IMG/VR virus record: IMGVR_UViG_3300032579_000009
Span: 1-64,000 of that record
DNA from: a virus
Length of the DNA: 64,000 bases
Direction: 5' to 3' (one strand)
Position 1 is the stretch's first letter. The number at the start of each line of letters is the position of its first letter. This document shows, one piece after another, positions 39,852 to 58,667 of this stretch. Made by a program: the position numbers and the translations under genes. The notes under the pieces were generated by a model. The model saw only the letters and a program-made list of their open reading frames with translations. It was not told where the DNA came from and ran no database searches.

Positions 39852-41774
39852 ATGTCTAAGATCATTGGTATTGACCTCGGCACCACTAACTCATGTGTGG
39901 CCATTCTTGAAAACAACAAACCAAAAGTAATTGAAAATAACGAAGGTGCTCGTACTACACCTAGTATCGTTGCCTACGGCGATGAGATCGTAGTTGGTGC
40001 ACCAGCTAAACGTCAAGCAGTTACAAATCCAAAGAAAACAGTCTATGCGGCTAAACGCTTAATTGGTCGTAAGTTTGACGAAAAAGAAGTACAAAAAGAC
40101 ATTGACCTAATGCCATACAAAATTGTTAAAAACAAAAATGGTGATGCATGGGTTAAGATTGATGATCAAGAACTAGCACCACCACAGATTTCAGCTGAAG
40201 TCTTACGCAAAATGAAAAAGACCGCTGAAGACTATCTTGGACATGAAGTAACACAGGCAGTTATTACTGTTCCTGCTTACTTTAATGACAGCCAACGTCA
40301 AGCAACTAAAGATGCAGGTACTATTGCAGGCCTAGAAGTCTTACGTATTATCAATGAGCCAACAGCGGCTGCACTAGCGTTTGGTATGGATAAAGATTCT
40401 AAGAAAGATCGTAAGATTGCTGTATACGATCTAGGTGGTGGTACATTTGACGTATCAATCATTGAAATTGTAGATGTTGATGGCGAAAAACAATTTGAAG
40501 TACTAGCTACCAATGGTGACACATTCCTAGGCGGTGAAGACTTTGACCAACGTCTAATGAACTACTTAATTGATGAATTCTTAAAAGAGTCAGGCGTTGA
40601 CCTGTCAAAAGATGTTCTAGCTCTACAACGCCTAAAAGAATCAGCAGAAAAAGCTAAAATTGAACTATCAAGCAGCCAACAAACCACAGTAAACTTACCG
40701 TACGTTACTGCTGATGCCACTGGTCCTAAACACTTAAACGTAACTATTACACGTGCTAAGTTTGAAGGCCTAGTAGAAGATTTGATCAAACGTGCTAGCG
40801 AGCCATGTAAGGTAGCATTGAAAGATGCAGGTGTAAGTGCCAGCGACATTGATGATGTTATCTTAGTTGGTGGCCAAACACGCATGCCTAAGGTACAGGA
40901 ATCAGTTAAAGAGATCTTTGGACGTGATCCACGCAAAGACGTTAACCCAGACGAAGCTGTAGCAGTTGGTGCGGCTATCCAAGGTGCTGTTCTAGCAGGT
41001 GATAAAACAGACGTGTTATTGTTAGACGTTACTCCGTTGAGCCTAGGTATTGAAACAGTTGGCGGTGTTATGACTAAACTGATTAAAAAGAATACAACTA
41101 TTCCTACTAAAGTTAGTCAAACATTCTCAACAGCAGAAGACAACCAACCAGCAGTTACAGTAGCTATTGGACAAGGTGAACGTGAGTTTATCAAGGACAA
41201 CAAGAAACTAGGTGAATTTAACCTAGAAGGTATTGCTCCTGCTCCACGTGGCGTGCCAGCAATTGAAATTACACTTGACATTGATGCTAACGGTATCTTG
41301 AAAGTAAGTGCCAAAGATAAAAACACTGGCAAAGAAAACAAGATCACTATCAAAGCTAACTCAGGCTTAACTGAAGAAGAAATTGAAAAGATGATTCAAG
41401 AAGCTGAAGCTAACAAAGATGCTGACGTTAAAGCTCGTGCTGTAGTTGATGCTAAAAACCGTGCTGATGAACAAGTACACGGTATTAACAAAGCATTAAA
41501 AGAACACGGTGACAAGTTAGATGATGGCATGAAAGAAAAAATTGAATCAGCACTAAAAGATCTTGAAACAGCCAAAGCTACAGAAGATGCTGACAAGATC
41601 ATGGAAGCTATCTCAGCACTAGCTGAGCCAGTTAAACCATTGTTTGATATTATGCAACAGGCTGAAGTAGCTAAACAAGCTGAAGTTCAACCTGGTGCAC
41701 AACCCAATTCAGAGAAACCAGTAGAAGGTGAAGTAGTAGATGCTGAGTTCACTGAAGTTAAAAAGGATGCCTAA
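39852..41774 (+). CDS. dnaK: Molecular chaperone DnaK (Hsp70), full length
   Basis: This 640-residue Hsp70 has all family blocks: [14 protein letters not shown] (phosphate 1), [41 protein letters not shown] (phosphate 2), [14 protein letters not shown] (adenosine), a substrate-binding beta domain from about residue 390 and a helical lid ending in [15 protein letters not shown]. It binds unfolded proteins in an ATP cycle. No dnaJ or grpE is in the window, so it would use host co-chaperones through its intact DnaJ- and GrpE-binding surfaces. It is followed by hsp20 43 nt later. Phage-borne complete DnaK is rare. Confidence 0.97.
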
Positions 41775-41789
41775 GGGGTCCTTTAATTA

Positions 41790-41812
41790 ATCTTGCTTAA
41801 TATAAGGAGAAT
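41790..41812 (+). promoter_or_regulatory. Leader element shared with dnaK
   Basis: ATCTTGCTTAATA (41790-41802) followed by TAAGGAGAA mirrors the dnaK leader and supplies the hsp20 ribosome site. Confidence 0.55.
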
Positions 41813-41817
41813 AAGCT

Positions 41818-42261
41818 ATGAAACAAGTATATGTAAATTCGTTAGATATCCCACAAATTCACAGATTTGCTGTGGGCTTTGACCGTATGTTTGATGAACT
41901 TGCTCGTACAGCAGGTACATTAAACTCAAGTAACTATCCACCATACAACATCGTTCGTGTTGCTGAGAACGAGTATGAAATTGAAGTAGCAGTCGCTGGC
42001 TTTGCAGAAGACGAACTAGATGTTGAAATGCAAAATGGTGAACTGTTTGTGCGTGGTGAATCAAAAGCCACTGACACACGTGTGGGCAACTACTTACATC
42101 AAGGCATTGCTGCACGTGACTTTACACGCACGTTTGCTCTTGCAGACAACGTTGAAGTCAAAGGTGCTAGTGTTAAAAACGGCATCTTAACAATCAAATT
42201 GGAAGTGTTTGTTCCTGAACACGAAAAGCCAAAAAAGATTGCAATTACCTTTCAGAAGTAG
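41818..42261 (+). CDS. Small heat-shock protein, Hsp20/IbpA type
   Basis: This 147-residue protein has an alpha-crystallin domain in residues about 38-135: PPYNIVRVAENEYEIEVAV, GFAEDELDVEM, RDFTRTFALADNVEVKGAS, then NGILTIKLEV. The N-terminus (FDRMFDELART) is IbpA-like. It holds unfolding proteins for refolding by DnaK, encoded just upstream. The two genes share a leader element, which suggests common post-transcriptional control. Hsp20 is known from T4-like cyanophages. Confidence 0.93.
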   Translation: MKQVYVNSLDIPQIHRFAVGFDRMFDELARTAGTLNSSNYPPYNIVRVAENEYEIEVAVAGFAEDELDVEMQNGELFVRGESKATDTRVGNYLHQGIAARDFTRTFALADNVEVKGASVKNGILTIKLEVFVPEHEKPKKIAITFQK

Positions 42262-42268
42262 TATAATT

Positions 42269-42302
42269 AATAGTAAGGGGTAAGGAAACTTACCCCGCTA
42301 TT
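42269..42302 (+). promoter_or_regulatory. GAAA-tetraloop hairpin upstream of clpS
   Basis: GGGGTAAG (42277-42284) pairs perfectly with CTTACCCC (42289-42296) across a GAAA loop, and flanking AATAG/CTATT extends the stem. There is no T tract, so it is more likely a processing, stability or control element than a terminator. Confidence 0.6.
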
Positions 42303-42339
42303 CAACTAAAAAATTATGTCAATTATAGAAAAGGAACAT

Positions 42340-42648
42340 ATGGGTACCAAAGCTGTCACAAGGACAAAGCCTGTCCCTAACTTTGATTTGCAAGAACCTC
42401 CAATGTATCGTGTGATCTACATTAATGATAATGTAACTACCATGGAGTTTGTTGTGGAAACATTGGTAACTATATTCAATCATACACCAGAATCAGCAGA
42501 AGCAGTTACAATGAAGATCCATGAAGAAGGATCAGGTATTGCCGCTGTACTACCATATGAAATGGCAGAACAAAAAGGTGTAGAAGTAACGCAACTGGCC
42601 CGTAACAACGGATTTCCACTGCAAGTTAAACTAGAACCAGACGCATGA
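42340..42648 (+). CDS. clpS: ClpS adaptor of the ClpAP protease
   Basis: This 102-residue protein starts at the second ATG, 42340, which has AAAAGGAAC 3-5 nt upstream; the ATG at 42316 lacks a site. The ClpS core is clear: PPMYRVIYINDNVTTMEFVVE (N-degron pocket DN), HTPESAEAVTMKIHEEG and a C-terminal VEVTQLARNNGFPL. ClpS delivers N-end-rule substrates to host ClpA and blocks other substrates. It is probably used to redirect host proteolysis, together with DnaK and Hsp20 upstream. The next gene overlaps by 4 nt. Confidence 0.92.
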   Translation: MGTKAVTRTKPVPNFDLQEPPMYRVIYINDNVTTMEFVVETLVTIFNHTPESAEAVTMKIHEEGSGIAAVLPYEMAEQKGVEVTQLARNNGFPLQVKLEPDA

Positions 42649-43305: not shown

Positions 43306-43838
43306 TGGATGTGATGTTAGACTTAGAAACGCTAAGTGTGCGTCCTGATGCTACAATTTGTACATTTGGTGCTTGTAAATTTAGTCCTTATAACCAAGAA
43401 GACATTGTAGACGGTATCTACTTCCGCATTGACATTGACAGTCAAATTGCTCTAGGACGACATGTAGATGACAATACTATTGCTTGGTGGGGTAATCAAG
43501 CAGAAGATGTCCGTGAAGAAGCTCTGGGTGAAGGTGATAGAGTCAGCTTAGAAAAGTTTACGCAAGAACTAAACAGATTTATTGTAGGTTGTGATAATAT
43601 CTGGGCACAAGGTCCAGTATTTGACATTGTTATTTTAGAAAACCTATATCGCCAAATGGGCTTACCATGCCCATGGCAGTTCTGGCAGATCCGTGATAGT
43701 CGTACCTTGTTAAGTAGCCTAGGTGACCCACGTGAAAAGAACAAAGCAGGCCTACACAATGCCTTAGAAGATGCAGTAAGTCAAGCACAGGCTGTGCAGT
43801 ACGTGTTTAAACAAGCAGGTATTACGGAGAAGCGTTAA
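43305..43838 (+). CDS. DEDDh 3'-5' exonuclease (DexA/RNase T-like)
   Basis: This 177-residue protein has MLDLETLS (ExoI: D6, E8), IWAQGPVFDIVILENL (ExoII Asp) and GLHNALEDAVSQAQ (ExoIIIe: H-x4-D). This is the catalytic set of the DEDDh family, and the length and style are those of T4 DexA-like phage exonucleases. It probably trims DNA ends during recombination or degrades host DNA. It overlaps neighbours by 1 nt on both sides (ATG and TAATG). Confidence 0.88.
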   Translation: MDVMLDLETLSVRPDATICTFGACKFSPYNQEDIVDGIYFRIDIDSQIALGRHVDDNTIAWWGNQAEDVREEALGEGDRVSLEKFTQELNRFIVGCDNIWAQGPVFDIVILENLYRQMGLPCPWQFWQIRDSRTLLSSLGDPREKNKAGLHNALEDAVSQAQAVQYVFKQAGITEKR

Positions 43839-44158
43839 TGCAGATTATATTTGGGCGTGAAAACGCAGAAAAACTCAGAGAAAAGTACACAGTACTTGAT
43901 CTAGAAACAGTAGAAAAAGATGGACACAGTCTAGAAGTATTTTGTCTAATTCCTGGTGATAAAATTGGTCTAGGTGATTTACCACAGTTAGAAAGCTGGG
44001 TTAAACTACATCACGATTTCCTTAATGGGTATTCTAAACAAGAATATGACTACTGCCTACAATGCATTGAACATCTTCGCGGCAAGTTTGGCGGAGAAGT
44101 AGACACATTCTACGATGAAATTCTTCGTCGTATCAACGAAAAAGACGTCAAAGTTTAA
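43838..44158 (+). CDS. Conserved-looking small phage protein, unknown
   Basis: This 106-residue acidic alpha/beta protein ends in a long helix (DTFYDEILRRINEKDVKV). The start overlaps the exonuclease stop (TAATG). It looks like the conserved small genes that follow replication genes in T4-like phages of aquatic bacteria. No catalytic motif seen. Confidence 0.55.
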   Translation: MQIIFGRENAEKLREKYTVLDLETVEKDGHSLEVFCLIPGDKIGLGDLPQLESWVKLHHDFLNGYSKQEYDYCLQCIEHLRGKFGGEVDTFYDEILRRINEKDVKV

Positions 44159-44203
44159 TCTAGATTAAGATTAAAGTACTATAAAACTTCACCCTAGGGT
44201 TCT

Positions 44204-44211
44204 AGTAAATA
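44204..44211 (+). promoter_or_regulatory. Late-type promoter element before the curli cassette
   Basis: AGTAAATA is a near match to the late consensus, 21 nt before the GTG at 44233; TAGGAG (44219-44224) is the ribosome site. Confidence 0.4.
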
Positions 44212-44232
44212 TTAATACTAGGAGCCTAGACA

Positions 44233-44685
44233 GTGAAAAAAATAATAATAACAATCACTTTCTTAGCGGCATCAACTGCGACGGCCGCACCTCTGCCTGA
44301 CTATACATTCAAAAGCCCAAGCTTCAATGGCAATGGTTACGGCACTTATGTCTTAACCATACAGAACGAAGAGTTTACTCGCAAGCAGGCAATTGAGCAG
44401 GCCTTACAAGCAGCACAGCAACAGGCCAAAACAGATGCAGCTAATACTCCTATTAACCAGTTCCTAGTAAACTTAGAATCACGTGTGCTAGCACAGGTAA
44501 GTCAAAACCTAGCTACTGCTATGTTTGCTCCTGGTGCAGCCACTAGCGGAACATTTAATTTCCAAGGTAATACAATATTTTGGCATAACCTAGGGAATTC
44601 TGTAGAATTACAAGTAACGGATAACTTGGGGAATGTAACCACGATCAATGTACCACTAGGATCATTTACATTTACACAACCATAA
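44233..44685 (+). CDS. csgF: CsgF-like curli assembly factor
   Basis: This is a 150-residue secreted protein. Signal peptide residues 1-18 (MKKIIITITFLAASTATA) end at an AxA site. The mature start PDYTFKSPSFNGNGYGTY matches the N-terminal segment of CsgF that plugs into the CsgG pore. It is followed by a Q/A-rich helix (QALQAAQQQAK), LESRVLAQVSQNLA, and a C-terminal beta part (NSVELQVTDNLGNVTTINV) as in CsgF. In bacteria CsgF anchors the curli nucleator at the outer-membrane pore. It begins with GTG and is 1 nt from csgG. Confidence 0.8.
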   Translation: MKKIIITITFLAASTATAAPLPDYTFKSPSFNGNGYGTYVLTIQNEEFTRKQAIEQALQAAQQQAKTDAANTPINQFLVNLESRVLAQVSQNLATAMFAPGAATSGTFNFQGNTIFWHNLGNSVELQVTDNLGNVTTINVPLGSFTFTQP

Positions 44686-44686
44686 T

Positions 44687-45718
44687 ATGAAAAGAATAAT
44701 AACAATATTAGCTATATTATCGTTGACTGGCTGTGCCACTATACAGAAAGCTGGATATGAGTCTAAACCAGAAACAGTGGGTATTAAACTACAAAAAGAG
44801 TTTGATACTATACCAGCACCAATGGGCAAGCCTATTACTGTGGCTGTGTATAGTTTTAAAGATCAAACTGGGCAACGCCGTAATATACCAAACATTGCTA
44901 GTTTTAGTACTGCGGTAACACAGGGTGCTGAGCCGTTTTTAATACGTGCCTTACAGGAAGTAGGACACGGACAATGGTTTGATGTAGTAGAACGTGTTAA
45001 CGTGGACAACCTAGTTAAAGAGCGTACTATTATCAAACAGATGCGCGATGCCTACGAAGGCACTAATGCTAAACCACTAATGCCCTTACAGTTTGCTGGT
45101 GTTATTATGGAAGGTGGTATTATTGGTTATGATAGCAGTATAGAAAGCGGTGGTACAGCTTATAAATGGTTGGGCATTGGTCCACAGACACAGTACAGTA
45201 AAGATGTAGTTACAGTTAGTTTGCGAGCAATATCAGTTAACTCTGGTAAAGTTCTAGCCACAGTAACAGAAAGTAAAACAATTTATTCAACAGCTGATAG
45301 TATTGCTGTGCTTAAGTTCTTTAAAGGTGGCACACAATCATTTGAATTTGAAACAGGCTTGACTATAAACGAGCCAACAAGTTTAGCGGTGAAAACTACA
45401 ATTGAAGCCGCAGTAGTAGAGTTGATCAAAGAAGGTCAACGTAAAGGAATTTGGGACTATAGAACTAATGCTCCACAGGCATTACCTGTAGTACCAAGTA
45501 CTCCTGTAGCACAACCTCCAGAGCCAGCGGTGGTAACACAACCAATAGCTAAAGAGGAACCAATTGAGGCCAAGGCGGTGGAAGAGCCAACAGCACCAGT
45601 GGAAGTAAAACAGGAAACTAAGAAACCACAGGTAAAAAAGAAAACTAATAAACTAATGCCAGTGGTGGATAACGGACCTAAAGTGTCCAAGGAGCAGATA
45701 GATGTTAAATTACATTAA
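44687..45718 (+). CDS. csgG: CsgG-like outer-membrane curli secretion channel (lipoprotein)
   Basis: This is a 343-residue protein. The lipobox LTGC puts the lipidated Cys at residue 16. The CsgG core is intact: ITVAVYSFKDQTGQRRN, NIASFSTAVTQGAEPFLIRAL, WFDVVERVNVDNLVKERTII, FAGVIMEGGIIGYDS, then the amphipathic transmembrane hairpins and VVTVSLRAISVNSGKVL. After the core is an extra Pro/Lys-rich tail of about 75 residues (VPSTPVAQPPEPAVV), not typical of CsgG. The pore exports curlin subunits across the outer membrane. It overlaps the first curlin gene by 17 nt. Confidence 0.93.
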   Translation: MKRIITILAILSLTGCATIQKAGYESKPETVGIKLQKEFDTIPAPMGKPITVAVYSFKDQTGQRRNIPNIASFSTAVTQGAEPFLIRALQEVGHGQWFDVVERVNVDNLVKERTIIKQMRDAYEGTNAKPLMPLQFAGVIMEGGIIGYDSSIESGGTAYKWLGIGPQTQYSKDVVTVSLRAISVNSGKVLATVTESKTIYSTADSIAVLKFFKGGTQSFEFETGLTINEPTSLAVKTTIEAAVVELIKEGQRKGIWDYRTNAPQALPVVPSTPVAQPPEPAVVTQPIAKEEPIEAKAVEEPTAPVEVKQETKKPQVKKKTNKLMPVVDNGPKVSKEQIDVKLH

Positions 45719-46532
45719 AAGTTTATTCGCAGTGTTATTACTTACTACAAGTGTGGCCTATGCTGACAACAACATCTATATTGATCAAAGCGGTGACTCT
45801 AACACTATCACAGTAACACAAGGTGATGGTAGTGGCAGCACAGGCAGTGACAATATTGGTGGTACAGGCAGCGGCAGTGCCGGCACAGGTAATCGTGCTA
45901 AAATTTACGGTAACAACAATGTTGTCAACGTAGATCAAGCTGGTACAAGTGATACCTTAAAATTGAATATCAATAACAATGCTACAAGTGGCTTTACATC
46001 AGAAACACGCAATGGTAATACATATAACAAAACATTCAATTATAGCGTAACTGGTGACAGTTCAACTGGTGTTATTAATATTACAGGTACACCTAGTGGC
46101 GGTGCAGCAACAGCCAGCTCAGGCAACCTAGTTAATATTAATCAAAGCGGTAACAGTGCTGGAGTTACTTTAAGTATTACAGGTAGCACCAACGACGTTA
46201 CAGCATTAACCAGTGGTGGTAGTAGCAATACACTTACTTCAACAATCACAGGTAGTGGAAATAGTCAAGGTATCAGCCTAACAGGTGGCGGTAGCAACGC
46301 AGCAACACTAACACAAACTGGTGGTAGCAATATTATCAATTTGACCAGTGTTGGCGCAAGCAATACCTACACAGTTAGTCAAACGGGCACAGGTCACGAT
46401 GCTGAATTGAGTTTCAATGGTAGTAGCAATACAGTTGCAGTTACACAGCAAGGTAGTACAGGTGTAAGCAACGTTAATGTTACTTCAGTAGGCAGCAGTA
46501 ACTCAATCACTATCAACACCAACGCTCACTAA
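45702..46532 (+). CDS. Curlin-repeat (CsgA/CsgB-like) secreted protein
   Basis: This is a 276-residue protein. Signal peptide residues 1-21 (ending SVAYA) are followed by NNIYIDQSGDSNTITVTQ, a curlin repeat (N-x-I-x-I-x-Q-x-G-x-x-N). Further repeats run to the C-terminus in variants S-x-N-x-x-x-x-Q-x-G and S-N-T-x-x-V-T. Ser, Thr, Asn and Gly make up most of the protein. It should pass through CsgG and form amyloid-like fibres or a beta-solenoid. It differs from CsgA by its longer, more divergent repeats. Confidence 0.85.
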   Translation: MLNYIKSLFAVLLLTTSVAYADNNIYIDQSGDSNTITVTQGDGSGSTGSDNIGGTGSGSAGTGNRAKIYGNNNVVNVDQAGTSDTLKLNINNNATSGFTSETRNGNTYNKTFNYSVTGDSSTGVINITGTPSGGAATASSGNLVNINQSGNSAGVTLSITGSTNDVTALTSGGSSNTLTSTITGSGNSQGISLTGGGSNAATLTQTGGSNIINLTSVGASNTYTVSQTGTGHDAELSFNGSSNTVAVTQQGSTGVSNVNVTSVGSSNSITINTNAH

Positions 46533-46544
46533 GCGGGGTGTAAA

Positions 46545-47360
46545 ATGCGAGCATGGATATGGGCAGCAGTCTTATTTGTTACGACTCTGCCCTCTTTTGC
46601 TGGCGACAACCAAGCATATATTGATCAATCTGGTCAATTCTCAGATATTTACGTATTACAAGATGGAGTAGGCAATGGCCTATATGGTATAGGCGGCCCT
46701 GCTATTCCCACAAATACAGCTACCATTCATGGTAATGGTAATGTAGTAACCATACAACAAACAGGCTCCAACGATCAACTACAGTTGAACATGGAAACTT
46801 CCAGTATGCCACGTCCGATGACCAATGTTAGTTGTCCTACATGCCCACAACCTGTACAAGGCAACAGTTGGAGTTATAACATTAATGGTAACAATGCCAA
46901 AGCGGTTATAGATGTCAACGCAGATGGCAAGAATACTTCAGTGAGTAATGGCATGGATGTGTCACAGATAGGTGATAATGCCGTATACAATGGGCGTTTT
47001 ATTGGCGACCATAACTCAGTGACTGTATCAACTACAGGACTTAACCAAACAGTTAATACAAGCGTAAGCGGTAGTACTAATACACAGACTACCAGTGCCG
47101 CTAATGGTAGTTACAATATTGTCACGGTAACACAATCTGGCACAAATGGCACGGCGCAGACTAACTTAAATGGTACTGCTAATATAGTCACAGTAAATCA
47201 AACAGATGGCGCTGCAAATGGACATCGCACAAACCTAGACATTAGTGGTAATAGTAATACCATTGCTGTTAATCAAAGTAGTCTAGTAGCAGATAGTAAT
47301 ATAAATCTTAAAACCACTGGCAGTAATAATGTTATCAACATAACGAGTATGTCAAGATGA
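46545..47360 (+). CDS. Curlin-repeat (CsgA/CsgB-like) secreted protein
   Basis: This 271-residue protein has a signal peptide (residues 1-19, ending PSFA), then DNQAYIDQSGQFSDIYVLQDG and many repeats of the N-x-V-x-V-x-Q-x-G type (NGNVVTIQQTGSND, GSYNIVTVTQSG, TANIVTVNQTDG). A C-P-x-C-P pair in the middle (VSCPTCPQP) could form a disulfide or bind metal. It follows the first curlin gene by 12 nt and overlaps the FecR-like gene by 4 nt. It may act as nucleator or second subunit. Confidence 0.83.
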   Translation: MRAWIWAAVLFVTTLPSFAGDNQAYIDQSGQFSDIYVLQDGVGNGLYGIGGPAIPTNTATIHGNGNVVTIQQTGSNDQLQLNMETSSMPRPMTNVSCPTCPQPVQGNSWSYNINGNNAKAVIDVNADGKNTSVSNGMDVSQIGDNAVYNGRFIGDHNSVTVSTTGLNQTVNTSVSGSTNTQTTSAANGSYNIVTVTQSGTNGTAQTNLNGTANIVTVNQTDGAANGHRTNLDISGNSNTIAVNQSSLVADSNINLKTTGSNNVINITSMSR

Positions 47361-48481
47361 AGCAACTACTAATCTTGTTACTTGTCCCTTTACTAGCCAA
47401 TGCCGCAGTGGGTACTATCACAGAACAAACAGCCCTGCCTGGTACTATTACTCGTAGTTTTACTGCCATGGAAGGTAAGAAAGGTGCTGGCATTGAAATG
47501 AATGACAAGGTACAGACTACTAAAGGTAAGATTGGCATTACATTCCAAGACGATACTAAAGTAGAAGTTAATGAAAGTAGTAAGTTAGTCATTGATGATT
47601 TTGTATTTGATCCTAAAAAGCCCAGTGCCGGCAAACTGGCTATGAAGTTTACACAGGGCACAGTTCGTTACGCATCAGGTGCTATTGCGCACAGTAACCC
47701 TAACAAAGTAGCACTAAACACGCCTAGCGCGACCATAGCAGTGCGTGGTACAGACTTTACGGCTACAGTAGATGAAATGGGCGAAAGTACTGTTATTCTA
47801 CTGCCAAGTTGTCCTAAAGGTTGGGCAGATATAGACAGAGATTGTAAAACAGGTGCCATTGACGTTATTAACGATGCTGGTATGGTTAGTCTTAATGTAG
47901 CCTTTCAAGGCACTAAGGTAGCCAGTCGTACTACAATGCCAATGAAACCAACAGTATTAAACTTGTCACCTGATACGATTAACAACCTGCTGATCGTTAG
48001 TCCGCCCAAAGAACTACGCAAGGAAGGAATAGAAACTAAAAACATATCAACTAAAAATCCTGCTGATATGTTAAATGTAGACTTTCTTAAACAAGATTAT
48101 TTAAAAAATGAGTTTGAAAAAGAAGGCACACCCTTTGGAGATAACCCATTGGCACACCCACTATTAGAACAATACTTCCTTGAAAACATTTTTGACATCT
48201 TGGCACAACAGCTACAAGAAGAACAAGCTGGACTACTAGCTAACTTGATAGCACCAAGTCAAACTAATAACATACTGCCAGACTATAAAAAGTCTACAGG
48301 TGTTACTGAAAGTATTGGCGCAAGTGAAGTTACCTTATGCCGTAGTGATGGCAGTAACAATCAATGTATTAGTACTCCTAAAGATCAAAATAGTCTACTA
48401 GTAGAAACACAGGGCGCAGTTACTATTAAAAACCGTGTCAATCAAGGTGCGGGCAGTACTATAACGGTGATACAACGATGA
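47357..48481 (+). CDS. Secreted FecR-domain protein in the curli cassette
   Basis: This is a 374-residue protein. Signal peptide residues 1-16 (ending ANA) are followed by a FecR-like beta domain: VQTTKGKIGITFQDDTKVEVN, SKLVIDDFVFDP, GKLAMKFTQGTVRYASG and ATIAVRGTDFTATV, ending near residue 190. There is no membrane anti-sigma part, so it is not a classical FecR regulator. Stand-alone secreted FecR domains are thought to bind polymers or assist surface assembly. The C-terminus has a weak curlin-like repeat (VTIKNRVNQGAGSTITVIQ). It overlaps both neighbours by 4 nt. Confidence 0.75.
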   Translation: MKQLLILLLVPLLANAAVGTITEQTALPGTITRSFTAMEGKKGAGIEMNDKVQTTKGKIGITFQDDTKVEVNESSKLVIDDFVFDPKKPSAGKLAMKFTQGTVRYASGAIAHSNPNKVALNTPSATIAVRGTDFTATVDEMGESTVILLPSCPKGWADIDRDCKTGAIDVINDAGMVSLNVAFQGTKVASRTTMPMKPTVLNLSPDTINNLLIVSPPKELRKEGIETKNISTKNPADMLNVDFLKQDYLKNEFEKEGTPFGDNPLAHPLLEQYFLENIFDILAQQLQEEQAGLLANLIAPSQTNNILPDYKKSTGVTESIGASEVTLCRSDGSNNQCISTPKDQNSLLVETQGAVTIKNRVNQGAGSTITVIQR

Positions 48482-49953
48482 AAAAGTTACTGTTAATCTT
48501 ATTACTTGTATGTTCTAGTGCATGGGCTGACGTTACCCAAGAACATTTTAGCTTCGCACAGGTATTTGATGTACAGTGGTATACCAGCAACGGCAAATTA
48601 TATGCCAGCAGTTTCAATTATTTGTATGCCAGTGTCAACGCAAGTGGCCAATTACAAGCGGGCAGACTAACATCTACACAAACTAATGCCTATGCATCAG
48701 CTGGTGATTATTTGGCTTTTTTTCATAGCTCAACTAATCCTGGAACCTTTGGACTTGGAGTATATGACACTAACAATAATCTAGTTCGTGTGTTGGACTA
48801 CACAGGGACCTTTGTGGCTCTGGCAGATGGTGCTATATTCTATAATGGTAATGGCAGTTGGGGTACATTGTTCACTACAGCACAGGGATATAGTTATGGG
48901 CAAGGTGGATCTTGGACTATCACACAGAGTTATCCTAGTAATACCTACATGACTAATTATACTCCGCCTAACACTACTCCCTTAGCGGCAGGACAGTCGG
49001 CGCCACCTGCTGTTACTATAACCAGCAGAGTAAACTCAACAATTACCACAACAGCTACAAGTGGAGCGACGGTCTATACCTACAGTCAACCTATTACCAC
49101 TACAACCTATAGTGATGGCTCTCAGACTGTGGTTAACAATGGCAGTGCAGTACTATTAAGCACAACTACTGTGGGTGGGGGCAGTGGTATTACCAATGCT
49201 GAACAAACATCAATGAACATTTCTCGTAATCAGCAGGTCAACTTGCCCACACCCAGCCACGTCTATATAGATCAAATTGGCAGTGGTGATCATATTAATA
49301 TCACAGTAAACAATCAGTCTAACCTAATAGGTGGACAAGATCAAACTGCTATGAAAGTTCGTGGCGGCAATAACACAGTTACTATACATCAGGGCGACCC
49401 TACTAATACATTAAGCACACATAACGTCATAGCCGCAGACCTACTAGGGGGAAGCAATAGTCTAACAGTTAATCAAGGCACAGACGCAAACGGTAACGGT
49501 AGTGGCACAGACTCTGGATATCATTATAGTAGCATATATGTTAGTGGAGTTAACAATTCAGTTAACGTTCAACAGCAGGCCACAGTTAATAATAACGTAG
49601 GCAACTATGCCAGCATCAATGTCACAGGCAATCAGAATAACATAGGTCTAATACAAACTGGTAACTCACCTAAACAGTTATTCACCGCAGTCTCAGGCAA
49701 TCAAAATACAGAAACAATTAGTCAAACTGGACTTGGGCAGCATTTTCTAGATGTTAATCTAAATGGAGATGGTAACACTGCTACAGTAAATCAGTCAGGC
49801 AATACAGCCAACACAGCAACCATCAACCTAACCAATGCTGGTGGCCCCGCTAGTGTAAATCTAACACAAACAGGCGGACAAAGTTATGGTATAAGTCAAA
49901 CCTGCGTACAAGCAGGAGGCTGCGGTACTGTGACTGTACGTCAAGGACCGTAA
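48478..49953 (+). CDS. Large secreted protein with C-terminal curlin repeats
   Basis: This is a 491-residue protein. A signal peptide (residues 1-17, ending SAWA) is followed by a 230-residue beta domain of unknown type (Tyr/Ser rich). Curlin repeats run from about residue 260 to the end (VYIDQIGSGDHINITVNNQ, NNTVTIHQGD, NQNTETISQTGLG, NTATVNQSGN). The C-terminal C-x5-C (CVQAGGC) could close a disulfide. It may be a fibre cap or adhesin on the curli-like polymer. It is the last gene of the cassette. Confidence 0.8.
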   Translation: MKKLLLILLLVCSSAWADVTQEHFSFAQVFDVQWYTSNGKLYASSFNYLYASVNASGQLQAGRLTSTQTNAYASAGDYLAFFHSSTNPGTFGLGVYDTNNNLVRVLDYTGTFVALADGAIFYNGNGSWGTLFTTAQGYSYGQGGSWTITQSYPSNTYMTNYTPPNTTPLAAGQSAPPAVTITSRVNSTITTTATSGATVYTYSQPITTTTYSDGSQTVVNNGSAVLLSTTTVGGGSGITNAEQTSMNISRNQQVNLPTPSHVYIDQIGSGDHINITVNNQSNLIGGQDQTAMKVRGGNNTVTIHQGDPTNTLSTHNVIAADLLGGSNSLTVNQGTDANGNGSGTDSGYHYSSIYVSGVNNSVNVQQQATVNNNVGNYASINVTGNQNNIGLIQTGNSPKQLFTAVSGNQNTETISQTGLGQHFLDVNLNGDGNTATVNQSGNTANTATINLTNAGGPASVNLTQTGGQSYGISQTCVQAGGCGTVTVRQGP

Positions 49954-49996
49954 CTAAACTGTAATCTAAAATGTAATCTTTTAATAGGATATTCTT

Positions 49997-50186: not shown

Positions 50187-50196
50187 CTGTATCAAT

Positions 50197-50222
50197 AAAA
50201 AGCCCCTTAATTGGGGCTTTTT
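50197..50222 (+). terminator. Bidirectional rho-independent terminator
   Basis: AAAAAGCCCC (50197-50206) pairs with GGGGCTTTTT (50213-50222) around TTAATT. It serves the forward gene at 50025 and the convergent minus genes ending at 50238. Confidence 0.92.
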
Positions 50223-50237
50223 ATTGAGTTAGTTTTC

Positions 50238-52923: not shown

Positions 52924-52997
52924 CTCAGTGTGGTGTAGAGATAACATGCGTGGTTTGGGACCATGTGTCGAAGGTTTGATTCCTTCCACTGAGACCA
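52924..52997 (+). tRNA. tRNA-Pro(TGG)
   Basis: Acceptor CTCAGTG/CACTGAG with encoded ACCA. The anticodon loop TTTGGGA reads TGG; the T-arm contains GGTTTGATTCC. Confidence 0.85.
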
Positions 52998-53003
52998 TTT
53001 AGC

Positions 53004-53087
53004 GGGTGATGAGCAGCATTGGCGACTGCAGCAGACTGTAAATCTGTGTCCTCTGGAAACTAGGTTCGACTCCTAGATCACCCACCA
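53004..53087 (+). tRNA. tRNA-Tyr(GTA)
   Basis: Acceptor GGGTGAT/ATCACCC with CCA. The loop CTGTAAA gives GTA, and a long variable arm is present as expected for bacterial tRNA-Tyr. Confidence 0.92.
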
Positions 53088-53093
53088 AGTTAT

Positions 53094-53188
53094 GTCGCAG
53101 TTCCAGTTACATTAATCTCTCAGTTCAAAGCTGTTAGTGTGCAAAGGACACGAGAAAGTCAACTTCTTCTGGGTAGACTGTGACGCCA
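53094..53188 (+). ncRNA. Unassigned tRNA-sized structured RNA
   Basis: The ends GTCGCAG (53094-53100) and CTGTGAC (53178-53184) pair over 7 bp and are followed by GCCA, as in a tRNA. CCAG (53103-53106) pairs with CTGG (53169-53172). Inside, TCTC/GAGA (53116-53119, 53152-53155) encloses hairpins CAG/CTG and GTGT/ACAC. There is no T-arm GGTTCGA motif, so it is not an ordinary tRNA. Confidence 0.5.
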
Positions 53189-53195
53189 AAATTTA

Positions 53196-53269
53196 GGGTC
53201 GTTAATTCAATGGGAGAATAGCTGGCTTTTAACCAGTCTACGACGGATCGTAACCGTCACGACTCACCA
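53196..53269 (+). tRNA. tRNA-Lys(TTT)
   Basis: Acceptor GGGTCGT/ACGACTC with ACCA. The loop CTTTTAA gives TTT. The T-loop is the unusual GGATCGTAACC, shared with the tRNA-Ile at 54212. Confidence 0.85.
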
Positions 53270-53316
53270 AGTATTTTATAGATAGAGCTAAATAATAGTA
53301 ATAAGGAGCTCTACCT

Positions 53317-53727
53317 ATGAAGTATTTTAATTGTTTATGTTGCGGAAAAGAAAATATCATTAAAGGCTATAGTTATACAGGAAAATATTGTAATAACAAA
53401 TGTCAAGCAACACATCGCACAGCTAAATGGTTTGAAGATAATAAATTATTGTTTGAACAAGGTTTACTTAAGCATAGATCAGCAATTAAAAAGTTTGTTA
53501 AATTAAGAGATGGTGAAATGTGTTCTATTTGCGGACAATCGCCAGAATATAATAACAAGCCGTTAGTTATGATTATAGATCATATTGATGGTGACGCAAG
53601 TAATAATATGCCGGATAATTTTAGATTAGTGTGTCCAAATTGCGACTCGCAGTTAGATACATATAAAGCACGAAATATAGGAAATGGTCGTGCTACTAAA
53701 GGTATGAAATGGTATAGTAGTTTATAA
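53317..53727 (+). CDS. HNH homing endonuclease in the tRNA array
   Basis: This is a 136-residue protein. An N-terminal zinc knuckle (FNCLCCGKEN ... YCNNKCQ) is followed by an HNH core with CSICGQ, IIDHIDGDASNNMPDNFRLVCPNCDSQ (D-H, N, and C-x2-C). It begins after AAGGAG downstream of a CTAAATA element. Its position between two tRNA genes is typical of mobile nuclease genes in phage tRNA clusters. Confidence 0.85.
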   Translation: MKYFNCLCCGKENIIKGYSYTGKYCNNKCQATHRTAKWFEDNKLLFEQGLLKHRSAIKKFVKLRDGEMCSICGQSPEYNNKPLVMIIDHIDGDASNNMPDNFRLVCPNCDSQLDTYKARNIGNGRATKGMKWYSSL

Positions 53728-53729
53728 AT

Positions 53730-53805
53730 GCGGTATTAGCTCAATCGGGAGAGCACGGCACTGTCACTGCCGAGGTAAGGGGATCGAAACCCCTATATCG
53801 CGCCA
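53730..53805 (+). tRNA. tRNA-Asp(GTC)
   Basis: Acceptor GCGGTAT/ATATCGC with GCCA. The loop CTGTCAC gives GTC; it starts 3 nt after the HNH stop. Confidence 0.9.
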
Positions 53806-53813
53806 AATAATTG

Positions 53814-53842
53814 TTGACAGCATTGTCTGTTAGCTATATAAT
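53814..53842 (+). promoter_or_regulatory. Sigma70-like promoter inside the tRNA array
   Basis: TTGACA (53814-53819) and TATAAT (53837-53842) are 17 nt apart, driving the tRNA-Glu at 53859 and followers. Confidence 0.75.
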
Positions 53843-53858
53843 GTTTATTAGAGTCATT

Positions 53859-53934
53859 GCTCCCATCGTCTAGAGGCCTAGGACACCCGCCTTTCACGCA
53901 GGTAACACGAGTTCGAATCTCGTTGGGAGTACCA
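53859..53934 (+). tRNA. tRNA-Glu(TTC), copy 1
   Basis: Acceptor GCTCCCA/TGGGAGT with ACCA. The loop CTTTCAC gives TTC. A related second copy lies at 60085. Confidence 0.92.
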
Positions 53935-53947
53935 GTTTTAAAGTTAC

Positions 53948-54022
53948 GGGCTGTTGGTATACTTGGGAACACACCTGCCTTGCACGCAGGAGTACGGGGT
54001 TCGACTCCCCGACGGTCCACCA
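53948..54022 (+). tRNA. tRNA-Ala(TGC)
   Basis: Acceptor GGGCTGT/ACGGTCC with two G-T pairs, then ACCA. The stem CCTGC/GCAGG holds loop CTTGCAC (TGC). Confidence 0.85.
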
Positions 54023-54030
54023 AATTAATT

Positions 54031-54105
54031 GCGCGGTTAGCTCAGCGGGAGAGCAGGGCCCTTACAAGGCCAAGGTCGAAAGTTCAATCCTTTCACTGCG
54101 CACCA
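54031..54105 (+). tRNA. tRNA-Val(TAC)
   Basis: Acceptor GCGCGGT/ACTGCGC with ACCA; loop CTTACAA gives TAC. Confidence 0.9.
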
Positions 54106-54128
54106 AGTTAGTAGTAGTAAAGTTTTAT

Positions 54129-54204
54129 TCCGGTCAAGCAAACACGGTGTAGGCGGTGGACTGTTAATCCATGAAGGTTGGTTCGATTCCAACGACCGGA
54201 GCCA
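54129..54204 (+). tRNA. tRNA-Asn(GTT)
   Basis: Acceptor TCCGGTC/GACCGGA with GCCA; loop CTGTTAA gives GTT. Confidence 0.9.
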
Positions 54205-54211
54205 TTTTTAT

Positions 54212-54285
54212 AGTCTGTTAGTTCAATGGGAGAACAGTCGACTGATAATCGACAAACACTGGATCGTAACCAGTACGGACTACCA
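54212..54285 (+). tRNA. tRNA-Ile(GAT)
   Basis: Acceptor AGTCTGT/ACGGACT with ACCA; stem GTCGA/TCGAC holds loop CTGATAA (GAT). The T-loop is the atypical GGATCGTAACC. Confidence 0.88.
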
Positions 54286-54290
54286 AGTAT

Positions 54291-54478
54291 TCCAACCACA
54301 TCGCGTTTAGGGTGAAGTAGGGCGTGCCAATAAAACCCTGTAAGATCAAAAATACCTACCAAGCAAGGAGGAATCACAGCGCAAGCTGAAGAACAATGTG
54401 GTGACTTGCTACCCGGGAGAAAGCTGTAACATTACGTATTCGAGGTTAGGAGAGTACAGCAAACCGCCCACTTATTTT
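54291..54478 (+). ncRNA. Unassigned structured RNA with possible pseudoknots
   Basis: Several perfect helices are visible: ACCACAT (54295-54301) with ATGTGGT (54396-54402); AGGGT (54309-54313) with ACCCT (54335-54339), crossing GTAGG (54317-54321) with CCTAC (54355-54359); AGCAAG (54362-54367) with CTTGCT (54405-54410); a CAGC-GCAA-GCTG hairpin (54377-54388); and GCTGT (54423-54427) with ACAGC (54456-54460). No ORF. It matches no RNA class I can name. Confidence 0.5.
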
Positions 54479-54568
54479 GGAAGCGTGGCAGAGCCTGGCT
54501 GATTGCACCTGTCTTGAAAACAGACAAGGGGAAACCCTTCGTGAGTTCGAATCTCACCGCTTCCGCCA
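54479..54568 (+). tRNA. tRNA-Ser(TGA)
   Basis: Acceptor GGAAGCG/CGCTTCC with GCCA; loop CTTGAAA gives TGA; long variable arm (AAGGGGAAACCCTT) as expected for Ser. Confidence 0.92.
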
Positions 54569-54579
54569 AATATTTTTAT

Positions 54580-54671
54580 CCTTCTGTAGTTCAATGGTAG
54601 AACGGCTCCCTTATAAGGAGTGAGTGCTAGATAAGCCGCTAATGGGGGTTCGAGTCCCTCCAGAAGGACCA
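54580..54671 (+). tRNA. tRNA with TAT anticodon and long variable arm (Ile-AUA type?)
   Basis: Acceptor CCTTCTG/CAGAAGG with ACCA; stem GCTCC/GGAGT holds loop CTTATAA (TAT, reads AUA). The variable region is about 22 nt with a possible AGTG/CGCT stem, which is normal for Ser, Leu and Tyr but not for Ile. Identity is therefore uncertain. Confidence 0.7.
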
Positions 54672-54673
54672 AT

Positions 54674-54747
54674 GCTCTTATAGTTAAGTGGCATAACGCA
54701 TCCATGGTAAGGATGTATTCCAAGTTCGATTCTTGGTGAGAGCACCA
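54674..54747 (+). tRNA. tRNA-Thr(GGT)
   Basis: Acceptor GCTCTTA/TGAGAGC with ACCA; stem CATCC/GGATG holds loop ATGGTAA (GGT). Confidence 0.87.
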
Positions 54748-54759
54748 AAAAAGTTTAAT

Positions 54760-54833
54760 TGGCTCATGGTGTAGTGGTAGCACAACAGGTTTTGATCCTG
54801 TTAGTCCTAGTTCGATTCTAGGTGGGCCTGCCA
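54760..54833 (+). tRNA. tRNA-Gln(TTG)
   Basis: Acceptor TGGCTCA with TGGGCCT and GCCA, leaving a T-T at position 1:72; loop TTTTGAT gives TTG. A weak first pair is common in tRNA-Gln. Confidence 0.85.
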
Positions 54834-54840
54834 AATAAAT

Positions 54841-54972
54841 AAAGAACAGTCCGGAGCATGCGAGTCCTACGATAAGTAGGAGAAAACTCCACTTATAGCT
54901 GGAATTTACCAGTGAACCCTATGGACGCATAGGGCTACGGGCATCCTGGGGGACAACTCCAACCTAATTAAA
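54841..54972 (+). ncRNA. Unassigned structured RNA with three hairpins
   Basis: GTCC and GGAC near the ends can close a domain that contains TCCTAC/GTAGGA (54865-54870, 54876-54881), CTGG/CCAG (54899-54902, 54909-54912) and CCCTATG/CATAGGG (54917-54923, 54928-54934). No ORF. No known class recognised. Confidence 0.5.
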
Positions 54973-54973
54973 A

Positions 54974-54992
54974 TGGTAGCACAGCAGTTTTG
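54974..54992 (+). pseudogene. Fragment resembling tRNA-Gln
   Basis: TGGTAGCACAGCAGTTTTG closely copies the D-arm to anticodon part of the tRNA-Gln just upstream (TGGTAGCACAACAGGTTTTG). It stops where the promoter of the GIY-YIG gene begins, so it looks like a tRNA remnant cut by that insertion. Confidence 0.4.
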
Positions 54993-55000
54993 TATAAATA
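54993..55000 (+). promoter_or_regulatory. T4 late promoter, consensus TATAAATA
   Basis: This is a perfect TATAAATA, 17 nt before the ATG at 55018, with GTGGAG between. Confidence 0.65.
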
Positions 55001-55017
55001 ATATAGTGGAGATAAAA

Positions 55018-55620
55018 ATGTTCTATATTATATACAAGACTACAAATTTAATCGATAATAAAATTTATGTCGGATCGCACCAAACTAAAGAGTTGAATGA
55101 CGATTACTTAGGGTCCGGAAAGTATCTTAAGCGTGCTATTTCTAAACACGGAAAGCAAAATTTTACTAAAGAGATTTTACATGTGTTTGACAATAAACAA
55201 GACATGTTTAATAAAGAACGCGAAATAGTAAATGAAGAATTTGTTAAGGATACAAATACATACAATTTCAAAATAGGCGGCTCGGGTGGTAATCCAGGCA
55301 TTGTGGGTGCATTTTCTGGTAAAAAACATTCGCAAGAGTCGATTGAAAAAATAAGATTGTCTGCCCTTGCCCAAGGAACAACAGATGAAAAAAGAAGAAA
55401 ATGTTCTGTTAATAATTGGGCAAAACAAGACCCAGACGCATTTAGAAAACACGCATCACGCATAAACAAAGATATCCCTAAAACAGATACACATAGAAAT
55501 GCGCTAGCAAAGGCACAGCTAGGACGAAAGATGATGAACAATGGTACAGTATCTAGTTTTATTAAAGCTGATGATATAAATGAATATTTAGAAAAAGGGT
55601 GGACACTAGGCCACCATTAA
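55018..55620 (+). CDS. GIY-YIG homing endonuclease (Seg-like)
   Basis: This 200-residue protein starts at ATG 55018 with a GGAG site; an upstream in-frame ATG at 54973 lies in the tRNA remnant and is less likely. The GIY-YIG core is MFYIIYKTTNLIDNKIYVGSH, with catalytic Tyr/Arg-region KYLKRAISKHG and Glu in NKEREIVNEEFV. The C-terminal part has the DNA-binding repeats GAFSGKKHSQES and KAQLGRKMMNNG (NUMOD3-like). It is a free-standing mobile gene inside the tRNA array, as Seg enzymes are in T4. Confidence 0.88.
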   Translation: MFYIIYKTTNLIDNKIYVGSHQTKELNDDYLGSGKYLKRAISKHGKQNFTKEILHVFDNKQDMFNKEREIVNEEFVKDTNTYNFKIGGSGGNPGIVGAFSGKKHSQESIEKIRLSALAQGTTDEKRRKCSVNNWAKQDPDAFRKHASRINKDIPKTDTHRNALAKAQLGRKMMNNGTVSSFIKADDINEYLEKGWTLGHH

Positions 55621-55628
55621 CAATCAAT

Positions 55629-55702
55629 TACCCCATAGTGTAACGGCAGCACGCGAAGCTCCAAACTTCTTAGTCGCGGTTCAAATCCGTGTGGGGTAGC
55701 CA
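55629..55702 (+). tRNA. tRNA-Trp(CCA)
   Basis: Acceptor TACCCCA/TGGGGTA with GCCA; stem GAAG/CTTC holds loop CTCCAAA (CCA). Confidence 0.9.
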
Positions 55703-55709
55703 TTTTTAC

Positions 55710-55787
55710 GCAACGGTACCAGAGTGGCCTAATGGCGGGGACTGCAAATCCCTAAAGCCGCCGGTTCAAATCCGGCCCTGTGCTCCA
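55710..55787 (+). tRNA. tRNA-Cys(GCA), weak acceptor stem
   Basis: The stem GGGA/TCCC holds loop CTGCAAA (GCA) and the T-arm GCCGG/CCGGC is good. The acceptor GCAACGG with CCTGTGC has two mismatches, so it may be poorly functional or need editing. The 3' end is TCCA. Confidence 0.75.
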
Positions 55788-55809
55788 AGAATAAATGTAA
55801 ATATATACT

Positions 55810-56385
55810 ATGTTAACAATGGATTTTATTGACGGCTCATATCCAGATTTCATTCATCGATTAGATGATTTTTTGGAATTGGTCCCATCTGGGCATGCTA
55901 AATGTTCTAAGAATGATATACTATTTTTATATTCAATCATCTATTCTAAAAAACCAGAAAATGTATTAGAAATAGGCCGTAGTTATGGCACATCAACTTT
56001 GACTATATGTGGTGCTTTAACGGACAATAATAAAGGTAAATTATATTCAATTGATGTGGAAAACTTATTGCCAAAAGATATAGCAAATATAATTGATAAA
56101 AGAACTCAATTGATTACTAATTCAAGTGAATACCTATTAGATGAAATCAATGATGTTAAATTTGGTGTTACATTCATTGATGGCGATCATTCATACGAGA
56201 TGGCCAAAAATGATATTATTAAATCCATGACACTATCAGAAGATGAAGCAATCATACTTTGTCATGATTCAGACATGTTAGGAGTACAACAGGCTATCAA
56301 CGAAGTCTGTGGTATGTATCCAACTAGCTTATTAAATTGTGGAGTATTTGGAGAAAAGATCCAAATGCTCATAGTCCGTAAATAA
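55810..56385 (+). CDS. Class I SAM-dependent methyltransferase (Methyltransf_24-like)
   Basis: This is a 191-residue protein. Motif I is VLEIGRSYGTSTLTI, motif II GKLYSIDVE, and VTFIDGDHSYEMAKND carries the FIDGDHSYE signature of the sugar or small-molecule O-methyltransferase subgroup. The target is unknown; a phage or host surface glycan is possible. It sits alone between tRNA genes. A TGTAAATA element ends 6 nt before the ATG, so the mRNA may be leaderless. A low-GC composition suggests recent acquisition. Confidence 0.8.
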   Translation: MLTMDFIDGSYPDFIHRLDDFLELVPSGHAKCSKNDILFLYSIIYSKKPENVLEIGRSYGTSTLTICGALTDNNKGKLYSIDVENLLPKDIANIIDKRTQLITNSSEYLLDEINDVKFGVTFIDGDHSYEMAKNDIIKSMTLSEDEAIILCHDSDMLGVQQAINEVCGMYPTSLLNCGVFGEKIQMLIVRK

Positions 56386-56393
56386 TCCAACAT

Positions 56394-56470
56394 AGCAATA
56401 TAGCTCAGCTGGCCAGAGCAGATCCTTCATACGGATAAGGTCACTAGTTCGAATCTAGTTATTGCTACCA
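56394..56470 (+). tRNA. tRNA with CAT anticodon (elongator Met or Ile2)
   Basis: Acceptor AGCAATA/TATTGCT with ACCA; loop TTCATAC (CAT). The anticodon stem lacks the three G-C pairs of initiators. The AGC..GCT acceptor could suit a lysidine-modified Ile2 tRNA. Confidence 0.85.
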
Positions 56471-56471
56471 T

Positions 56472-56549
56472 GCCTCCATAGCTCATTTGGATTAGAGCAT
56501 TTGGCTACGAACCAAAAGGTGGGGAGTTCGAATCTCTCTGGGGGCTCCA
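56472..56549 (+). tRNA. tRNA-Arg(ACG)
   Basis: Acceptor GCCTCCA/TGGGGGC with TCCA; stem TTTGG/CCAAA holds loop CTACGAA (ACG). Confidence 0.9.
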
Positions 56550-56557
56550 GTTTTAAT

Positions 56558-56631: not shown

Positions 56632-56633
56632 AT

Positions 56634-56708: not shown

Positions 56709-56709
56709 C

Positions 56710-56738: not shown

Positions 56739-56744
56739 ACACAT

Positions 56745-57682: not shown

Positions 57683-57687
57683 ACTGA

Positions 57688-58665: not shown

Positions 58666-58667
58666 AT

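Follow-up and report, generated by a model that had tools for sequence, protein, structure and literature searches.

What is a curli-type secretion cassette doing in a phage genome, when in infection would it be used, and to what end? We addressed these questions for the first 64,000 bases (the window) of a 95,183-base viral record, IMGVR_UViG_3300032579_000009, which may be a fragment and in which six adjacent plus strand genes at 44233-49953 encode, in order, CsgF, CsgG, two tandem curlin-repeat proteins, a FecR-domain protein and a longer curlin-repeat protein. Our preferred answer, to which we assign a probability of about 0.7, is that the cassette is a phage curli (type VIII) module through which the phage, late in infection, produces amyloid-type proteins of its own and exports them. 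Comparison of viral loci shows that the predicted CsgF, CsgG, curlin-repeat substrates, FecR and a CHASE2 cyclase form a module kept across many phages, and the timing is suggested by a predicted hairpin in the leader of csgF.

Coordinates, Pfam matches and a curlin-repeat profile agreed on the six genes as initially annotated, and profile searches for CsgG, CsgF, curlin and FecR were all positive, supporting the earlier proposal that pore and substrates occur together in a phage. CsgF (150 residues, 44233-44685) begins with GTG and matched PF10614 with 53.4 bits (cut-off 25.8) and phrog_35372 with 159.9 bits. CsgG, the predicted lipoprotein pore (343 residues, 44687-45718), matched PF03783 with 149.8 bits (cut-off 20.8) and phrog_20175 with 301.8 bits, and the CsgG profile matched solved CsgG chains with an E-value of 3.3e-64. 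Curlin-repeat protein 1 (276 residues, 45702-46532), a putative secreted substrate, matched PF07012 (Curlin_rpt) in three stretches with 34.0 bits (cut-off 20.7) in addition to the repeat profile. The repeat profile also recognized protein 2 (271 residues, 46545-47360), which has no Pfam match, and protein 3 (491 residues, 48478-49953), in which the repeats begin at about residue 259 and which, its N-terminal region included, matched no Pfam or PHROG family. Between these two lies the gene for the FecR-domain protein (374 residues, 47357-48481), predicted to be secreted, which matched PF04773 with 34.4 bits (cut-off 24.0) and phrog_37870 with 372.8 bits. The PHROG families matched by CsgF, CsgG and FecR are of unknown function. 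The gaps between the six open reading frames (ORFs) are, in order, 1, -17, 12, -4 and -4 nucleotides (nt); five of the six proteins have N-termini resembling Sec signal peptides and CsgG carries the lipobox LTGC, signal peptides and lipoboxes of window proteins being judged by eye throughout.

The curlin-repeat profile was made from 765 bacterial curlin repeats, and sequence segments scoring above 8 bits were counted. Proteins 1, 2 and 3 contain 11, 7 and 7 such segments, respectively, against shuffle means of 0.29, 0.12 and 0.17 (maxima 4, 3 and 3), and none was found in CsgF, CsgG or FecR. Proteins 1 and 2 are related to one another, with an alignment score of 316 compared with a shuffle maximum of 126. 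What marks a type VIII (curli) system is thus found here: a CsgG-family lipoprotein pore, CsgF and curlin-repeat substrates whose secretion is predicted from sequence. With E. coli csgDEFG/csgBAC the locus shares the CsgG family over the pore domain, the CsgF family and the curlin repeats; it differs in the addition of FecR and the CHASE2 cyclase and in the lack of a CsgE or CsgC match in the 95,183-base, possibly incomplete record, as the initial annotation had also found within the cassette (CsgD was not searched for). The same annotation called the Pro/Lys-rich tail of CsgG odd. The tail is indeed present, as an extension of about 85 residues rich in Pro, Lys and Glu that follows the pore domain in the alignment; the extension varies among relatives from nearly absent to short or long. 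In two of these CsgG proteins (L017 and L028) a charged linker is followed by a C-terminal SH3-like match of 21.8 and 21.1 bits, below the Pfam cut-offs, which presumably lies on the periplasmic side if the topology is that of E. coli CsgG.

The conservation of the module was assessed in 25 IMG/VR loci retrieved with the window's CsgG, the best 80 of at least 594 retrieved with an alignment, phages Melnitz and HTVC008M, and the window itself. The 108 loci with CsgG were reduced to 96 once identical CsgG proteins were removed (the window being represented by L004), and the counting profiles were themselves derived from this viral set. In all 96, csgF adjoins csgG. The fecR gene follows csgG in 69 of the 69 loci with the more than 3.5 kb of downstream sequence needed for the test, and a cyclase gene, which required more than 9 kb, was present in 39 of 40 (the miss being L092), always downstream and on the same strand. 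All 73 loci that contain a complete FecR have a curlin-repeat-positive ORF in the interval from csgG to fecR, and 60 of 68 have one beyond fecR; among 150 control ORFs, from which N/Q/G/S/T-rich ORFs were excluded, 1 was positive. Two curlin-like (N/Q/G/S/T-rich) ORFs between csgG and fecR occur in the window (L004) alone; the other 72 of the 73 loci have exactly one. Identity to the two closest complete loci is 77-81% for CsgF, CsgG and Hsp70, 65-77% for the last curlin and 65-66% for FecR; the first curlin, at 43-44%, is therefore the fastest-changing part.

The window's own cyclase (674 residues, 61180-63204, plus strand) combines CHASE2 and class III adenylate/guanylate cyclase matches (PF05226, 132.6 bits; PF00211, 64.8 bits; phrog_35576) and matches the cyclases of Melnitz and HTVC008M. 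It lies about 11 kb past the cassette, from which it is separated by 28 transfer RNA (tRNA) genes at 52924-60956; it starts 15 kb after csgG, and the window, represented by L004, does not enter the count of 39 in 40. This cyclase, an ORF at 43838-44158 described below and the leader hairpin are additions to the gene list of the initial annotation, which had considered a cassette with its own substrates and FecR unusual. The counts above point the other way, and such cassettes have been described (PMC9599517, PMC7029224).

Because the module is already in print, its presence is not categorically new. A curli operon was reported in pelagimyophages in 2020 (PMC7029224), curli genes were noted in a T4-like marine virus genome in the same year (PMC7198788), and in 2022 curlins, FecR and cyclase were identified in podoviruses and myoviruses, phage curli being described as widespread in the ocean (PMC9599517; the word CHASE2 is absent from its main text). 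The pelagiphage module, known from HTVC008M and from uncultivated pelagimyophages and pelagipodophages, has the shared order csgF-csgG-curlin-fecR-curlin-adenylate cyclase (PMC7029224, PMC9599517). HTVC008M CsgG and FecR are 43% and 46% identical to those of the window over the matched 74% and 61%, and the HTVC008M record annotates fecR and the second curlin as hypothetical. The Methylophilales phage Melnitz has the same order, a CsgG of 47% identity and a cyclase directly behind the second curlin; it differs in having a transfer-messenger RNA (tmRNA) near the curli operon, under a glutamine riboswitch according to its authors (PMC9004378). From the pelagiphage module the window differs in its two tandem curlins before fecR, a cyclase 11 kb away behind tRNA genes, an upstream 106-residue relative of the cyclase tail and the CsgG tail.

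Evidence on timing comes from the csgF leader, in which a predicted hairpin (44188-44237, plus strand) encloses the late-promoter core TAAATA (44206-44211) and holds on its 3' side the Shine-Dalgarno sequence AGGAG (44220-44224) and the GTG start (44233-44235), both of which are paired. The predicted fold has an energy of -22.4 kcal/mol (z -5.14), and none of 200 dinucleotide shuffles was as stable. The presumed late transcript, assumed to start just after TAAATA, lacks the 5' arm and has a predicted fold of -4.6 kcal/mol. In phage T4, gene e, soc, gene 49 and homing endonucleases are controlled by such late-motif hairpins (PMC2988022, PMC3014915). What the csgF leader shares with the T4 late-gene switch of gene e, soc and I-TevI is a late motif within a hairpin that hides the Shine-Dalgarno sequence and start codon of read-through transcripts; it differs in standing ahead of a secretion operon and in being known by prediction, with 5' ends that are assumed.

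The same arrangement recurs in other viral loci. TAAATA occurs within 80 nt upstream of csgF in 68 of 96 loci, compared with 11.1 by shuffling (maximum 19); the corresponding counts are 0 of 96 for csgG, 3 of 79 for fecR and 23 of 57 for the cyclase (4.5 shuffled). Among the 69 leaders that have TAAATA no more than 85 nt away, 43 show stems with a score of at least 6 flanking the motif, against 19.4 in shuffles (maximum 28). Across 64 folded leaders, the mean unpaired value of the Shine-Dalgarno site was 0.23 with the natural 5' arm, 0.36 with shuffled arms and 0.55 in the presumed late transcript (Wilcoxon 8e-5 for natural versus shuffled arms, not corrected for kinship). Covariation was examined in 13 of the 69 leaders, picked for visible stems, using a structure that we named ourselves: 74.6% were paired versus 68.2% in shuffles, covariation was 0.334 versus 0.222 with none of 500 shuffles as high, and both-side changes were found in 5 of 11 pairs, a value reached in 31 of 500 shuffles. 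Within the 95-kb record, 17 ORFs have a Shine-Dalgarno-like site behind TAAATA and z fell below -2 (base shuffles) for three of them, csgF and two HNH-endonuclease-like ORFs with TAAATA-in-hairpin leaders, at 53317-53727 (z -5.5) and at 60232-60684 (z -4.5; HNH match below the Pfam cut-off). In the window, 11 of 49 ATG-led plus strand ORFs of at least 100 residues are preceded by TAAATA at a distance of up to 60 nt, compared with 2.1 at random places.

From these data we infer that the phage withholds the csg products until the late phase of infection. The leader switch looks to be an addition to what has been reported on phage curli, as it is unmentioned in the main texts of PMC7029224, PMC9004378 and PMC9599517, from which the word hairpin is absent. 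It also offers a testable handle: product would be expected only late, like T4 lysozyme.

The proposed mechanism for the curli module is as follows. Transcripts reading in from upstream would fold so that the ribosome site and start of csgF are hidden, and the late promoter within the hairpin would give rise to shorter, translatable transcripts without the 5' arm, as in T4 lysozyme and I-TevI. The cassette proteins would then be exported via Sec, CsgG and CsgF would form an outer-membrane pore, and the curlins would exit and polymerize, either at the surface of the infected cell or upon lysis. Instead of regulating iron uptake genes, FecR, with its curlin-like C-terminal strand, may assist assembly or retention in the periplasm, and the cyclase may report the state of the envelope. 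Nutrient uptake, a lysis pore and sibling capture have all been suggested in print as uses of phage curli. We tentatively favor an amyloid coat that could hold cells, debris or virions together, or block competitors, late in infection, at somewhat less than even odds; for no specific benefit would we go higher, and for others we would go lower. The timing evidence favors late roles and picks none among the lysis pore, aggregation, coating and trapping put forward initially.

Several observations weigh against this reading. The CsgE profile had no match in the record, which may be a fragment, and the Melnitz authors did not see their cultures clump (PMC9004378). Some leaders are without the switch: in 27 of 96, no TAAATA lies within 85 nt of csgF, and none was found in the csgF leader of Melnitz, for which 15 late promoters have been predicted (PMC9004378). 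Opening exceeded 0.3 in 32 of the 64 folded leaders (19 using the shuffled-arm average), and 20 of the 64 beat 95% of their own shuffles, the window leader not being among them (fraction 0.15). RNAalifold gave no consensus structure on the 13 leaders chosen for covariation. The late promoter was judged from the TAAATA core alone; the 80 nt ahead of a virion gene (L191:9314) and of groEL are free of TAAATA, and no PHROG named gp55 or gp33 was found among 50 record proteins scanned. Finally, the idea that FecR ends in a complete curlin repeat had to be rejected, as the C-terminus was the best place for the ungapped profile in 7 of 74 proteins, with a shuffle p of at most 0.05 in 16 of 74, and for the gapped profile in 6 of 63.

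A weaker claim about FecR can be kept, namely that its C-terminus ends in a conserved curlin-like last strand. The motif G-x(1-3)-hydrophobic-x-hydrophobic-x-Q is present in the last 25 residues of 54 of 74 FecR proteins (the unique sequences among 85 full-length proteins), compared with 3.1 in shuffles (maximum 8) and with 25 of 913 segments from other parts of these proteins; when the motif was defined more strictly, it was found in 17 of 74 versus 1.2. An AlphaFold2 model of FecR built from 72 viral sequences (mean predicted local distance difference test score, pLDDT, 81.9), which superseded a poor first model from 13 sequences (pLDDT 50.2), shows the FecR fold at residues about 47-211 (PupR in model comparison: Z 15.2, root-mean-square deviation 2.5, 133 aligned), a low-confidence linker at about 201-310 (block pLDDT 45-76) and a C-terminal beta domain of six short, high-confidence strands at 316-373. 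Residues 15-111 resemble 5ix9, a 76-residue cell-surface anchoring domain (Z 6.8, root-mean-square deviation 2.4, 73 aligned, 25% identity; Foldseek TM score by target 0.71), with a Z in the range where likeness may be merely a common arrangement. We take 5ix9 to be part of an RTX ice-binding adhesin, from which the present FecR differs in not belonging to an RTX adhesin. No curli-type structure was found among the 50 listed Foldseek or VIA-align rows, in searches that used the whole model and not the C-terminal domain by itself.

This architecture allows a bolder, improbable version of the curli reading in which FecR is a tethered nucleator. The FecR domain would plug CsgG in the periplasm, the linker of about 100 residues would thread the pore, and the C-terminal curlin-like domain would template polymerization outside, so that the fiber is anchored with neither CsgB nor CsgE; the CHASE2 cyclase would read the FecR plug. 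With release only late, through the hairpin switch, the outcome would be a burst of amyloid timed by the phage to lysis, holding progeny and neighbor cells together.

Among the alternatives, the one that fares best concerns the partnership of FecR and cyclase, a pair present in almost every viral locus that allowed the test. FecR could mainly serve as a periplasmic ligand for the CHASE2 cyclase, the two forming an envelope sensor that raises cyclic AMP when secretion works or jams; we consider this rather unlikely as the chief role, and it is compatible with the curli reading and not exclusive of it. In 20 bacterial FecR loci, hand-picked from the top of the match list, a cyclase-profile match was found in the same fetched locus in just 3 (the catalytic part in L255 and L257, the CHASE2 part in L258), which counts for the sensor by its presence beside FecR and against it by its rarity. 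A further point in its favor is that a relative of the cyclase tail adjoins csgF. This ORF of 106 residues (43838-44158, plus strand), a possible upstream partner gene, scored 35.2 bits with a profile derived solely from full-length phage cyclases (66 sequences), the best of 1000 shuffles reaching 5.1, and cyclase-tail-like ORFs were found in 17 of 95 viral loci. It had no significant Pfam match, and direct BLAST against the window cyclase was not significant (E 0.55). The ORF could encode a cyclase binder or be a relic.

A second alternative dispenses with amyloid export: CsgG and CsgF would act as a bare outer-membrane pore in lysis timing or permeabilization, as proposed for the curli genes of Melnitz (PMC9004378). 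Predicted late timing by a switch of the T4 lysozyme type would suit such a pore, as would the failure to find a gene for the CsgE gate in the record. However, a bare pore needs no curlins, and the presence of a substrate gene ahead of fecR in every locus tested (73 of 73), and of another behind it in most, argues against it. Melnitz itself, stated to lack csgA and csgB (PMC9004378), has two curlin-associated repeat proteins annotated in its GenBank record. We regard a bare pore as improbable.

Less probable still, and in our view very unlikely, is the suggestion from the pelagiphage literature that nutrients or cofactors enter through an open CsgG pore and that FecR is a regulator sensing iron (PMC9599517). 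The FecR domain does share the periplasmic fold of the FecR/PupR iron regulators, but no sigma-factor partner was found, as Sigma70_r2 had no match in the 95-kb, possibly incomplete record, which weakens the iron-regulator reading. In addition, the present FecR has, as judged by eye, a signal-peptide-like start and no N-terminal cytoplasmic domain, and in 11 of the 20 bacterial FecR loci the domain lies within an ORF of at least 800 residues, some of them cut by locus ends. Late timing fits the feeding of an infection poorly, and the substrates are retained in all 73 loci.

That the cassette is host DNA, misassembled or very recently captured, as the initial annotation cautioned, is barely credible: nothing beyond the bacterial type of the genes speaks for it, cassette and window have GC contents of 0.41 and 0.40, an identical CsgG occurs in two further IMG/VR contigs (57 and 149 kb) with cassette order and bit scores unchanged, and phage order and partners are conserved across viral loci and differ from five bacterial curli loci without FecR and cyclase.

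The bacterial loci also bear on the origin of the module. Among 385 genomes of the class of a Maricaulis metagenome-assembled genome (MAG; G001), which we take to be Alphaproteobacteria, 30 had CsgG profile matches, mostly weak, and five besides G001 had strong ones. All five strong loci contained csgF and curlin-like ORFs, and none contained FecR or cyclase in the 17 kb fetched. In the best 80 of 424 genome-contig relatives, FecR was present in eight (L110, L112-L115, L152, L170 and L175), on contigs of 3-61 kb. Phage structural genes are present on L110 and L170; three ORFs of L113 yielded one radical-SAM PHROG and nothing else, L175 yielded a PHROG of unknown function and one ORF of L152 yielded none (L112, L114 and L115 were outside this test). 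Of the two Maricaulis MAG contigs with FecR, one carries a virion structural gene. An Alphaproteobacteria origin has been proposed for FecR and cyclase in curli operons (PMC9599517). Contrary to that proposal, their absence from all five bacterial curli loci examined suggests, on a small sample, that both are a phage-side addition, and further suggests that phages have their own means of operating curli in which CsgE is dispensed with. As a separate observation, curli-module contigs with phage structural genes have been binned into Maricaulis and Neomarinimicrobiota MAGs, which could mislead origin studies.

As to the phage itself, the window's DnaB is nearest to those of Pseudomonas jumbo phages of 285-288 kb and a virion protein to that of cyanophage S-CAM1, indicating that the phage is T4-like and possibly large. 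Among the matches listed, relatives of its CsgG occur on contigs as long as 212-358 kb (seven distinct ones in IMG/VR), compared with genomes of 141-147 kb for Melnitz and HTVC008M. A tblastn search of CsgG against 50,697 phage records found relatives in seven, namely four Melnitz strains, two HTVC008M records and one unannotated 1.5-kb record named Salmonella phage, and megablast of window positions 30000-54000 found no match among phage records.

Upstream of the cassette lies a plus strand chaperone block (39852-42648) encoding Hsp70 (39852-41774), Hsp20 (41818-42261) and ClpS (42316-42648), a neighbor for which we claim no part in the secretion system. Since DnaK keeps curli subunits transport-competent in E. 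coli (PMC6123696), a helper role for Hsp70 is possible. In Hsp70-centered loci with at least 7 kb of downstream sequence, csgG lies 2.5-5.2 kb downstream in 17 of 23 and is absent downstream in 6 of 23. Hsp70 as a required helper was rejected, as it is present in only 23 of the 61 curli loci with enough upstream sequence, which indicates synteny of a lineage and not a required part. The phage's chaperone set also includes GroEL elsewhere in the record (L191 5063-6682; record about 84862-86481).

On the far side of the cassette, homing-endonuclease-like ORFs are interspersed among the 28 tRNA genes of the island. Just past it, a predicted lipoprotein of 70 residues (60971-61183, plus strand; lipobox ITGC by eye), preceded by TATAAATA at 60958, overlaps the cyclase start; a small lipobox ORF precedes 5 of 61 cyclases, that of the window among them. 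At the other end of the window, an ORF of 1854 residues (27-5591) had no PHROG match at E 0.001. A terminator-like stem of 15 pairs lies downstream of the cassette at 50192-50227, such sites being no commoner than in shuffles (5 versus 6.0), and a search of Rfam gave two matches, both at this stem and far under the gathering scores (E 0.41 and 0.73). The sole array found in a tandem repeat search has a 12-base unit and spans 49950-49979.

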